Positions 9,354 to 11,740 of a DNA stretch of 34,455 nt are shown one piece after another. The notes beneath the pieces were generated by a model. The model searched no databases. It saw nothing but the letters and a program-made list of their open reading frames with translations, and had not been told where the DNA came from. The translations under genes and the position numbers were made by a program. The DNA comes from an uncultured Acidimicrobiales bacterium (GTDB taxonomy: Bacteria > Actinomycetota > Acidimicrobiia > Acidimicrobiales > SZUA-35). Numbering within the stretch: position 1 is the stretch's first letter; each line of letters starts with the position of its first letter. Location of the stretch: the NCBI GenBank assembly GCA_937958015.1, contig CALGOA010000123.1, positions 1 to 34,455 on the forward strand. Direction: 5' to 3'.

Positions 9354-9917
9354 ATGGCGATGAACACTTCAGACTTCAAAAACGGAATGGCGATCGATCT
9401 GGGGAGCGAAGGTCTCTACCAGATCAACGCGTTCCAGCACGTCAAGCCCGGCAAGGGTGGAGCGTTCGTCCGCACCACTCTTCGCAACATGCGTACCGGC
9501 GCCGTCGTCGACCGCACCTTCCGAGCGGGCGAGAAGATGGAGCGGGCGTTCATCGAGAAGCGTGATCAGCAGTTCCTCTACAAAGACGCCGACGGGTTCG
9601 TCGTGATGGATTCCGAGAGTTACGAGCAGCTCACCGTGCCGGCCGAAACCATGGGTGATGCTGGTAACTATCTCCGTGAGGGTGACACGATCACCATTCA
9701 GTTCTACGGCAACGAGATCGTGGGTTCCGACATGGCGGCCGCCGTTGAACTGACGATCACCGAGACCGAACCCGGCGTTCAGGGCGATCGAGTTTCGGGT
9801 GCGCGCAAACCCGCCACGCTCGAGACCGGTCTCGTTATCCAGGTGCCGCTGTTCGTCGAGCAGGGCGACGTCGTGAAGGTTGATACCCGCTCTGGCGAGT
9901 ACATCACCCGCGCCTGA
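9354..9917 (+). CDS. efp: Elongation factor P
   Basis: Rescues ribosomes stalled on consecutive prolines by entering next to the P site. The 187-aa protein has the three-domain EF-P layout: KOW-like domain I with the loop HVKPGKGGAFVRTTLRNMRTG, whose Lys34 is the tip residue; an OB domain; and C-terminal GDVVKVDTRSGEYITRA. The loop resembles the Bacillus form more than the PGKGP loop described for Corynebacterium, since the last Pro is Gly here. No EpmA or EpmB gene is in the window. Its TGA overlaps the nusB ATG by one base. In Mycobacterium efp follows pepQ on the same strand; here it faces pepQ, which points to a local inversion. Confidence 0.97.
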   Translation: MAMNTSDFKNGMAIDLGSEGLYQINAFQHVKPGKGGAFVRTTLRNMRTGAVVDRTFRAGEKMERAFIEKRDQQFLYKDADGFVVMDSESYEQLTVPAETMGDAGNYLREGDTITIQFYGNEIVGSDMAAAVELTITETEPGVQGDRVSGARKPATLETGLVIQVPLFVEQGDVVKVDTRSGEYITRA

Positions 9918-10348
9918 TGAAGGCCCAAGTCCGCGGCGAGATCGGTAGCCGCCGAGCCGCCCGCGAAAACGCGGTCGAACTGGCCTACGAACAAGAGATG
10001 CGCGGCCTCGACGTGGAGCAGCTGCTGGCCGAACGGGTTCTGCCACCCGATGATCTCACCGTGGCGCTGTTGACCGACTCTCAAACCCACCGCGCCGAAG
10101 CCGACCGTCGAATCGACGAGGCGTCCGACCACTGGGACCTTCACCGCATGCCCGTGATGGACCTCACCGTGCTCCGACTGGCGGTCGCCGAACTGCTTGA
10201 AGCAAAAACTCCTCCCGGCGTCGTTATCGCTGAGACGGTGTACCTCACCGGGCTGTTCTCCACCGAGGAAAGCAGCCGTTTCGTCAACGGCATCCTGGGC
10301 GCGATCAGCCGGACCCTCAGCACCACTCCCCCCGACGAAGAGGAATAA
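9917..10348 (+). CDS. nusB: Transcription antitermination factor NusB
   Basis: A 143-aa all-helical RNA-binding protein that pairs with NusE (S10) on boxA of rRNA operons. Recognised by SRRAARENAVELAYEQEMRG at the N-terminus and the C-terminal pattern MDLTVLRLAVAELL ... PPGVVIAETVYLTGLFSTEESSRFVNGILGAI. Coupled to efp through TGATG. The gene is followed, without a clear U-tailed terminator, by the repeat/nuclease cassette. Confidence 0.95.
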   Translation: MKAQVRGEIGSRRAARENAVELAYEQEMRGLDVEQLLAERVLPPDDLTVALLTDSQTHRAEADRRIDEASDHWDLHRMPVMDLTVLRLAVAELLEAKTPPGVVIAETVYLTGLFSTEESSRFVNGILGAISRTLSTTPPDEEE

Positions 10349-10363
10349 CTCGGATCGGGATCC

Positions 10364-10380
10364 CGAACCGCGTCGACACT
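10364..10380 (+). repeat. Collapsed copy of the 49-nt palindromic repeat
   Basis: CGAACCGCGTCGACACT looks like a full copy from which 29 bases between the two TCGA arms are missing: left end, one shared TCGA, then the right end ACAC. It lies 32 bases before copy A, and 61 minus 29 equals 32, so the spacer register is kept. Confidence 0.5.
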
Positions 10381-10395
10381 CCTGCTCCGCCCCAT

Positions 10396-10444
10396 CGAAC
10401 CGTGTCGACAAACGCCCGCTGAGCGAGCACTACTCGACACACCC
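10396..10444 (+). repeat. 49-nt palindromic repeat, copy A (5' flank)
   Basis: Outer arms GTGTCGA (10402-10408) and TCGACAC (10434-10440) are perfect inverted repeats; an inner imperfect hairpin GCCCGCTGAGCGAGC lies between them. The unit begins CGAACC and ends ACACCC. It recurs 61 bases later as copy B and near-identically as copies C and D beyond the nuclease gene. Confidence 0.85.
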
Positions 10445-10456
10445 ACGACCCTGCAC

Positions 10457-10505
10457 CGAACCGTGTCGACAAACGCCTACTGAACGAGCGCTACTCGACA
10501 CGCCC
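10457..10505 (+). repeat. 49-nt palindromic repeat, copy B (5' flank)
   Basis: Same outer arms (GTGTCGA at 10463-10469, TCGACAC at 10495-10501); the inner hairpin is more divergent (GCCTACTGAACGAGC). Twelve unrelated bases separate it from copy A. Confidence 0.85.
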
Positions 10506-10580
10506 GCGACCCCGGTGGAGAGCGCCCACGGAGGTCGAGGCTCGACGGTTCTGTCACAGGGCTTCGTTATGGTCGATTCT

Positions 10581-10606
10581 GGCTCGGACCGTGCGGTCCT
10601 TGAGCC
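10581..10606 (+). other. Strong hairpin in the leader of the nuclease gene
   Basis: GGCTC-GGACC, loop GTGC, GGTCC-TT-GAGCC forms a ten-base-pair stem with a two-base bulge. No T run follows, so it is not a plain intrinsic terminator. It lies between the 5' repeats and the nuclease start. The rest of the gene-free stretch 10349-10652 holds the repeats above and no other feature I can support. Confidence 0.5.
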
Positions 10607-10652
10607 CCTCGAGCTCGTCTCCTCAGATCAAAATCGTCGAAGGAGACATGCC

Positions 10653-11585
10653 ATGTCGTTCAAACGTCTCGATCAGGTGCGTGCCTATGCCCGAGCCTCG
10701 TCCGGCTTCATTACCACCAAGGAACTTGCCCAACTGCAGATTCCGAGTTCCACCGCCCGCCGTTGGGCCCAAGGCGGCCAGCTAGTGAGATTCCAACGAG
10801 GCGTCTACCGAGTCGACGACGGCCTCATCGGATTCGACGAGGCAGTCGACCTCGCAGCCAAGGTGATGGGCCCTGACCGGGCGATCTCGGGACGCTCTGC
10901 GCTCGCCCTTTGGGATCTCCCCGGTGGTTCGCGTTCGAAAGTAGAAGTCGTCGGCCCTCCAGGAGCCACATCGATCTCGAAACATCTGATCTGTCATCGG
11001 TCCCGCGACCTTCGTCCCAGCGATGCGACGTTAGTCAACGGAATCCCCGTGTGTACGCCAACCCGCGCTCTGATTGATGGCTCTGCGGCCTTGAGCGACC
11101 AAGTGATTGGGGATGCTCTCGTTCGTGGTCGCCAGCGATCGTTGTTCTCGATCGACGAGGTGTCGATCCGCGTGGCGGAGTTGACTCGACCAGGGCGAGG
11201 CGGACTTTCGAACATTCGTCGCGTCCTCTCGACGGCCATCGAAGACACTGAGTCGCTTCGGCCTCAAAACGGGTACGAGCAGATGGCGCAGCGACTCTTC
11301 GAGTCGTTCGGCCTTCCCAAGCCGGTGGCGCAAATGCGAATCGACAGCGGGCGACAGGTGTTCTACGTCGACTTCGCATGGCCCAGCTGGCGGTTGATCG
11401 TCGAGTGCGATTCGATCTTGGCTCACAGCACCCAGACTGACTTGCAACACGACCTTTCTCGCCAGAACGCGCTCGTTCAGGCGGGTTGGCGAGTGTTGAG
11501 ATTCTCCTACTTCGACATCCGGGACCGACCAGAGCACGTTGCCGCAGTCCTTCGAGCCGAGTTCAAATCGGCGCAGGCAATCTGA
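10653..11585 (+). CDS. AbiEi-like winged-helix plus DUF559-like PD-(D/E)XK nuclease
   Basis: A 310-aa protein of unknown role. Residues ~1-55 form an AbiEi-type helix-turn-helix (SGFITTKELAQLQIPSSTARRWAQGGQLVRFQRGVYRV), ~60-150 match the AbiEi middle region (ISGRSALALWDLPG, TPTRALIDGSAAL), and the C-terminal ~100 residues carry a DUF559/Vsr-like endonuclease core: YVDFAWPSWRLIVECDS, giving Asp and Glu-X-Asp at catalytic positions, then GWRVLRFSYFDI. AAGGAG (10640-10645) suits the ATG at 10653; an out-of-frame ATG at 10648 is ignored. The frame is open back into nusB but that part only translates the repeats. No AbiEii toxin neighbours it, so it is not a standard AbiE pair. Flanking direct blocks of palindromic repeats and an interruption of conserved gene order suggest acquisition or a cassette (inference). 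Confidence 0.8.
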   Translation: MSFKRLDQVRAYARASSGFITTKELAQLQIPSSTARRWAQGGQLVRFQRGVYRVDDGLIGFDEAVDLAAKVMGPDRAISGRSALALWDLPGGSRSKVEVVGPPGATSISKHLICHRSRDLRPSDATLVNGIPVCTPTRALIDGSAALSDQVIGDALVRGRQRSLFSIDEVSIRVAELTRPGRGGLSNIRRVLSTAIEDTESLRPQNGYEQMAQRLFESFGLPKPVAQMRIDSGRQVFYVDFAWPSWRLIVECDSILAHSTQTDLQHDLSRQNALVQAGWRVLRFSYFDIRDRPEHVAAVLRAEFKSAQAI

Positions 11586-11604
11586 CCACACGTAGACCGA
11601 GCGC

Positions 11605-11616
11605 TTGTCGACCAAC
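11605..11616 (+). repeat. Possible remnant of the repeat, 3' flank
   Basis: TTGTCGACCAAC resembles the left arm of the repeat and lies exactly 32 bases before the equivalent position of copy C, the same offset as the collapsed copy has to copy A. The match is short and could be chance. Confidence 0.3.
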
Positions 11617-11630
11617 CGAGATTCGCAGCG

Positions 11631-11679
11631 CCGACTGTGTCCGCAAACGCCCGCTGAACGAGCACTACTCGACACACCC
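11631..11679 (+). repeat. 49-nt palindromic repeat, copy C (3' flank)
   Basis: From AAACGCCC through CTACTCGACACACCC it matches copy A at all but one base (A for G in the inner hairpin). The left arm has decayed to GTGTCCG. It starts 46 bases after the nuclease stop. Confidence 0.85.
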
Positions 11680-11691
11680 GCGCCGCCACAC

Positions 11692-11740
11692 CGAACCGGG
11701 TCGAGAAACGCCCGGTCAGCGGGCACTAATCGACACACCC
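11692..11740 (+). repeat. 49-nt palindromic repeat, copy D (3' flank)
   Basis: Starts 61 bases after copy C. The inner hairpin reads GCCCGGTCAGCGGGC, giving five perfect outer pairs (GCCCG/CGGGC), where copy A has one mismatch. It ends ten bases before the pepQ stop. Confidence 0.8.

Follow-up and report, generated by a model that had tools for sequence, protein, structure and literature searches.

The window analyzed here, a 34,455-nucleotide stretch of DNA from an Acidimicrobiales-like actinobacterium, contains four 49-bp palindromes with a 61-bp period that frame a gene for an AbiEi-nuclease fusion protein. Our preferred reading, which we consider probable though far from certain, is that the gene and its palindromes belong to a self-spreading nuclease-and-repeat system, in which the nuclease spreads its own sites in the manner of REPIN/RAYT systems but with non-homologous parts; the binding, cleavage, and copying that this entails are inferred. 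The evidence points to a system that has not been described before. To our knowledge, actinobacterial genomes commonly encode DUF559 and "AbiEi family" fusion proteins, for which no role is known. We found no paper in the open-access PMC literature that pairs DUF559 with AbiEi, and a description elsewhere is not excluded; as far as titles and abstracts reveal, open-access PMC papers naming DUF559 and "palindromic" or "homing endonuclease" make no such link.

The upstream doublet comprises unit 1 (10396..10444, + strand) and unit 2 (10457..10505, +), and the downstream doublet comprises unit 3 (11631..11679, +), whose left arm is mutated, and unit 4 (11692..11740, +). The second unit of each doublet follows the first by 61 bp and all four share one orientation, exactly as the original prediction had placed them. 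That prediction also put the agreement between the flanks at about 88 of 110 positions; alignment of the reference doublet with the other flank gives a close value, 81% over 107 nt without gaps. The core pattern of the unit has a chance expectation of 0.00 within the window. Direct reading of the letters reveals a relic beside each doublet. The upstream relic (10364..10395, +) is a collapsed unit reduced to its arms, CGAACCGCGTCGACAC followed by spacer, with the center deleted and ∼29 bp of it missing relative to the 61-bp period. The downstream relic (11598..11619, +) is the right half of a unit, which keeps the 61-bp register and abuts the 3′ end of the gene, the latter occupying the place of the left half. 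Because one relic consists of collapsed arms and the other is a half unit, the two equivalent 142-base blocks proposed earlier are only partly equivalent: similar blocks do flank the gene, but their relics differ in kind. Three of the four units form imperfect hairpins that are better than those of shuffled sequences (z −2.0 to −2.8), while the unit at 11631, with its damaged left arm, has no better-than-shuffle fold. No Rfam family matched between positions 9900 and 12300 of the window.

The fusion gene itself (10653..11585, +) runs from an ATG at 10653 to a stop codon at 11585 and encodes 310 amino acids. Residues 2–180 (10656..11192, +) form an AbiEi-like, putatively DNA-binding part recognized by PADLOC (AbiEi, E 1.4e-27), and residues ∼209–310 (11277..11582, +) form a nuclease domain with conserved residues E209, D240, E251, D253, H258, and D267. 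Pfam identifies AbiEi_4 (1.7e-7) and DUF559 (5.6e-8) in the protein. In an AlphaFold2 model (pLDDT 87.7), the first half matches AbiEi (PDB 6y8q) and the second half matches the homing endonuclease I-Bth0305I (3r3p; TM 0.79 by target), 3hrl (0.74), and Vsr (1vsr; 0.53). The Pfam, PADLOC, and fold matches together confirm the coupling of an AbiEi-like DNA-binding part to a DUF559-like nuclease that had been read from the DNA. Judged from the predicted model, the nuclease fold is of the Vsr/EDxHD homing-endonuclease type; catalysis is inferred.

Inside the cassette lies a promoter-like element, TGTCACAG-N8-TATGGT (10552..10573, +), whose function is also inferred. TGTCAC[AG] is found upstream of 24 of 77 related genes, and the window and related genes have in common a promoter-like motif, yTGTCACAS-N8-NANNNT, between the upstream repeats and the start codon. 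Its spacing resembles that of the mycobacterial DNA-damage (PafBC) promoter. At the window locus we noticed no AbiEii (DUF1814) toxin gene adjoining the fusion gene, the neighbors being NusB and an M24 peptidase. The efp-nusB block (window 9354-10348) is inverted relative to three congeners (G001-G003, loci L095-L097), in which the order is aroKB>pepQ>efp>nusB>hpcH; the cassette borders this block at one end. The inversion could stem from a break made by the nuclease, or from assembly. Searches of phages and plasmids yielded no relatives beyond weak or partial ones. In scans of genome contigs, a single protein as query gave no relative and a six-sequence alignment gave nine loci, a wide alignment being too divergent to serve as a query.

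We took DUF559 matches from 41 genomes (forty relatives and the window's own) and aligned the upstream flank of each gene with its downstream flank, using mismatched flanks and neighboring genes as controls. The same palindrome lies on both sides of 69 of the 110 AbiEi-nuclease fusion genes and of none of 18 AbiEi-type genes without the nuclease (Fisher p 1.7e-7); the latter were collected with PF13338, and a few of them are other HTH proteins. Mismatched flank pairs pass in 0.16% of cases. In the neighbor comparison, 36/73 DUF559 genes are flanked versus 2/80 neighboring genes, and each of these two neighbors lies next to a cassette, with which it shares an additional repeat copy. Flanking by a gene-private palindrome depends on the nuclease fusion. 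The flanks are not always direct, since those of the L057 cassette are inverted, and a strict direct-repeat rule is rejected on this ground. Similar flanks accompany similar proteins: over all pairs, this holds for 8 of 9 above 60% identity and for few below 50%. At this sensitivity 41 of the 110 fusion genes have no flank repeat, which suggests decay, domestication, or single-flank cases. At L070 (413-1583) and L071 (2737-3775), an extra cassette palindrome past the neighboring gene frames that neighbor too.

Some Actinomycetota genomes from beyond the order show the pattern again, and it is also clear in Salsipaludibacter albus. Short DUF559-only genes tested outside the order do not show it, the single exception being a match, below threshold, to a 16-bp palindrome that is common. 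One short DUF559-only gene (L315, in G193) is framed by TGTTTCACGTGAAACA, which is unlike the palindromes described here and resembles a ParB parS site.

The genome of the window (4.17 Mb, in a fragmented assembly of 252 contigs) contains several such families. All five DUF559 genes are surrounded by palindromic repeats, each by its own, different ones, although the repeats of the C132 gene are diverged and under the statistical threshold. Repeats also flank three additional AbiEi genes (C49, C146, and C99) that are as long as the nuclease fusions. The closest paralog, on C8, whose protein is 51% identical, is laid out in the same way around another stem, GCACGAG..CTCGTGC in place of the GTGTCGA..TCGACAC of the window. 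With up to three mismatches allowed, the pattern of the window unit occurs only in the four window copies and at one gene-less place, and BLAST adds a second gene-less doublet; the whole family in 4.17 Mb is thus the four window copies plus two doublets, on C82 and C235, both verified as gene-less by tblastn. A common intergenic repeat without enrichment near DUF559 genes would have refuted the original prediction; instead, the copies are few and flanking is enriched at AbiEi-nuclease genes. Copies per family range from a few up to ∼35, the C130 (L010) family being the most abundant in this genome with ∼35 dispersed copies. At the C130 gene itself the array period is 110 bp.

Comparison with relatives leads us to conclude that the repeats were gained and are not ancestral. 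The dnaJ-hspR junction of G026 holds a doublet, and in the relatives read (two of them congeners) these genes are no more than 52 bp apart. Empty counterparts without a palindrome exist for three cassettes: the recG site in G045, the L064 site in G042, and the L076 site in G041. The nusB region (nusB-pepQ) in the window's genus has neither the gene nor the repeats, and supplies the empty site that the original prediction had envisaged; relatives carrying the gene without repeats would have spoken against it, but relatives without the gene also lack the repeat. The original interpretation is therefore supported, with mobility and cleavage still a matter of inference. None of the five families of the window's genome occurs in its four congeners. 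At dnaJ-hspR and the cassette sites no target-site duplication was readable, the relatives being too distant in intergenic DNA.

The recG site provides evidence of concerted change. Here the fusion genes of G026 and its congener G042 are orthologs (69% identical) with different palindromes around them, the two flanks agreeing within each genome. Each palindrome has about a dozen dispersed copies in its own genome and no more than three weak matches in the other genome, a double dissociation, and a search of four congeners found neither palindrome in G041 or G043. The dispersed copies of each genome match its own gene, and a cognate pairing is well supported. Between these two orthologous cassettes, both flanks have changed together with the dispersed copies.

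Dispersed copies are common away from the genes. In the complete genome G026, which has eight DUF559 genes, at least 29 loci among the matches listed (40 of 242 candidates were scored) lie away from all eight, mostly as whole doublets. A random 400-kb sample of G026 contains copies of the eighth family (L028), and therefore all eight families have gene-less copies. At the dispersed loci checked, tblastn detected no AbiEi-nuclease gene, and none of eight dispersed copies read in G042 contains such a gene. Units are somewhat more alike within a doublet (0.89–0.92) than between doublets (0.83–0.87). G026 also holds palindromic doublets without a recognized DUF559 gene (L223:17340, L223:18929, L224:4751, L229:2585, and L229:15121), suggesting extinct or undetected partners.

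The architecture of the sites resembles that of known operators. In 53 flanked genes the palindrome spans ∼44–50 bp, with pairing strongest 12–21 bp from the center and a mean of 16.5 of 24 pairs versus 11.4. Doublets are head-to-tail and, in ∼15 families from several genomes, have periods of only 61–63 or 71–73 bp (Rayleigh p ∼3e-6), equal to six or seven helical turns. From these restricted periods we infer, without an assay, that the units are likely to be protein sites in duplex DNA, lying on one helical face, and not RNA or single-strand hairpins. AbiEi binds two 23-bp arms spaced 3 bp apart, 49 bp in all; in the Rv2827c promoter there are two such pairs, the gaps being 13 bp and 4 bp and the period 63 bp (PMC7319586). 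Unit size and doublet period match these operators, and the 49-bp inverted-repeat type is present upstream of the gene. Since site size and phasing match known AbiEi biochemistry, that the fusion proteins bind these palindromes is a strong inference by analogy, for which there are no binding data. Most palindromes begin at their outer ends with a CGWWC-like motif (CGTTCTGG, CGAACCG, and others), perhaps the common half-site core of AbiEi-nuclease proteins.

This match also admits an alternative in which an autoregulated AbiEi-nuclease commands a regulon, with the dispersed doublets as its operators and the nuclease incidental. Phased doublets suit protein binding, the upstream doublet stands directly before the promoter-like motif, and a regulator with many operators would also yield cognate dispersed sites, a point against our preferred reading. 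However, we consider the alternative unlikely: a doublet lies downstream of the gene too, relatives lack the sites where their orthologous loci can be compared, and gene-less doublets sit just 3′ of genes, usually no more than 25 bp from a stop codon, with 0 of 15 classifiable cases in divergent gaps compared with 38/164 in the background. The absence of the pattern from AbiEi-type genes without the nuclease (0/18) also leads us to reject an AbiEi operator alone as the explanation.

A nuclease that is silenced by the palindromes, forming a one-gene toxin-antitoxin- or restriction-like module for defense or addiction, with the dispersed copies as decoys or host adaptations, is less likely still. 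AbiEi is a type IV antitoxin module, and the distribution of gene and repeat is patchy and genome specific; but no AbiEii partner was noticed beside the window gene, decoys leave the concerted flanks and recurrent empty sites unexplained, and the spread in copy number, from a few to ∼35 per family, also argues against it. We regard as improbable the proposal that another enzyme (RAYT or IS) spreads the palindromes and that AbiEi-nuclease genes insert into them or hitchhike on them. The G026 doublets without a recognized cognate gene would fit it, but the family found on the two flanks is particular to each fusion gene, and repeat identity switches along with the orthologous gene; insertion of a cassette into pre-existing repeats is rejected because no palindrome is present at the empty sites. 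An origin by chance, or as generic intergenic repeats (terminators, slippage), can be dismissed, since, although palindromes after stop codons can serve as terminators, such repeats are refuted by the expectation of 0.00 in the window and by the mismatched-flank, neighbor, and nuclease-free AbiEi controls.

In the self-spreading nuclease-and-repeat system that we favor, the AbiEi-type part would bind its private 44–50-bp palindrome in duplex DNA, often two on the same helical face, and the Vsr/EDxHD homing-type nuclease would cut or nick at or beside it. Repair of the break, by homing-like copying or gene conversion, or else a transposition reaction could then copy the doublet, or the doublet-gene-doublet, to new intergenic places and preserve the likeness of the two flanks. 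In addition, the upstream doublet probably serves the gene in autoregulation, like AbiEi operators. We note that a cassette with its own sites intact is unusual for a homing endonuclease, and that protection or a non-lethal reaction is needed. A more far-reaching hypothesis, to which we give slightly less than an even chance, is that these cassettes are a new class of selfish DNA, in which an AbiEi-type operator-binding protein captured a Vsr/homing nuclease and, needing neither transposase nor recombinase, spreads its own duplex operator doublets by break and repair, whether or not the gene travels with them; fast co-evolution of site and protein would then give rise to many independent families per genome.

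The fusion proteins are tied to a specific DNA substrate, so that their function can now be tested directly. Should the inferred mechanism be true, unrelated enzymes would have given rise to REP-like dispersal on two or more occasions, an operator of toxin-antitoxin origin would have turned into a selfish element, and genomes would offer many nucleases already paired with a cognate 49-bp site.

Among known systems, the AbiE type IV toxin-antitoxins (AbiEi and M. tuberculosis Rv2827c) share the N-terminal fold, the 23-3-23-bp inverted-repeat site of 49 bp, and two tandem pairs with a 63-bp period (PMC7319586). Here, in contrast, a nuclease is fused, no AbiEii partner is seen at the window locus, and the sites both frame the gene and are scattered through the genome. 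I-Bth0305I (EDxHD) and Vsr have the same catalytic-domain fold and residue pattern, but here there is no intron or intein and the DNA-binding part is AbiEi-like. Unlike that of a homing endonuclease, the gene does not interrupt its own site, full copies of which stand on both flanks, and the empty sites carry no palindrome, whereas empty alleles of homing endonucleases have an intact recognition site. CGTC REPs, which have no known transposase (PMC3733652), are likewise dispersed palindromes of unknown agent, but their stem-loops are shorter, form mainly head-to-head dimers, and occur in other taxa.

The window system is not a member of the REPIN-RAYT family, because none of its parts is homologous. 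The enzyme here combines AbiEi with an EDxHD/PD-(D/E)XK nuclease, whereas RAYT (TnpA-REP) is an HUH (Y1) tyrosine enzyme; units are 44–50 bp long, compared with 20–40 for REPs, and follow no GTAG rule; and dimers are head-to-tail and helically phased, whereas REP dimers are mainly head-to-head or tail-to-tail, HT dimers being absent or under-represented (PMC3733652). The REP/RAYT precedent invoked in the original prediction needs correcting in its details, given probable AbiEi-type duplex sites in place of single-strand hairpins, a Vsr/EDxHD fold, and an orientation that is not always direct, but it stands as a good functional analogy. In both systems, palindromes are dispersed between genes and a cognate nuclease gene lies between its own palindromes; a genome has several families, the repeats usually occur as dimers, and their gain in genomes is evident.
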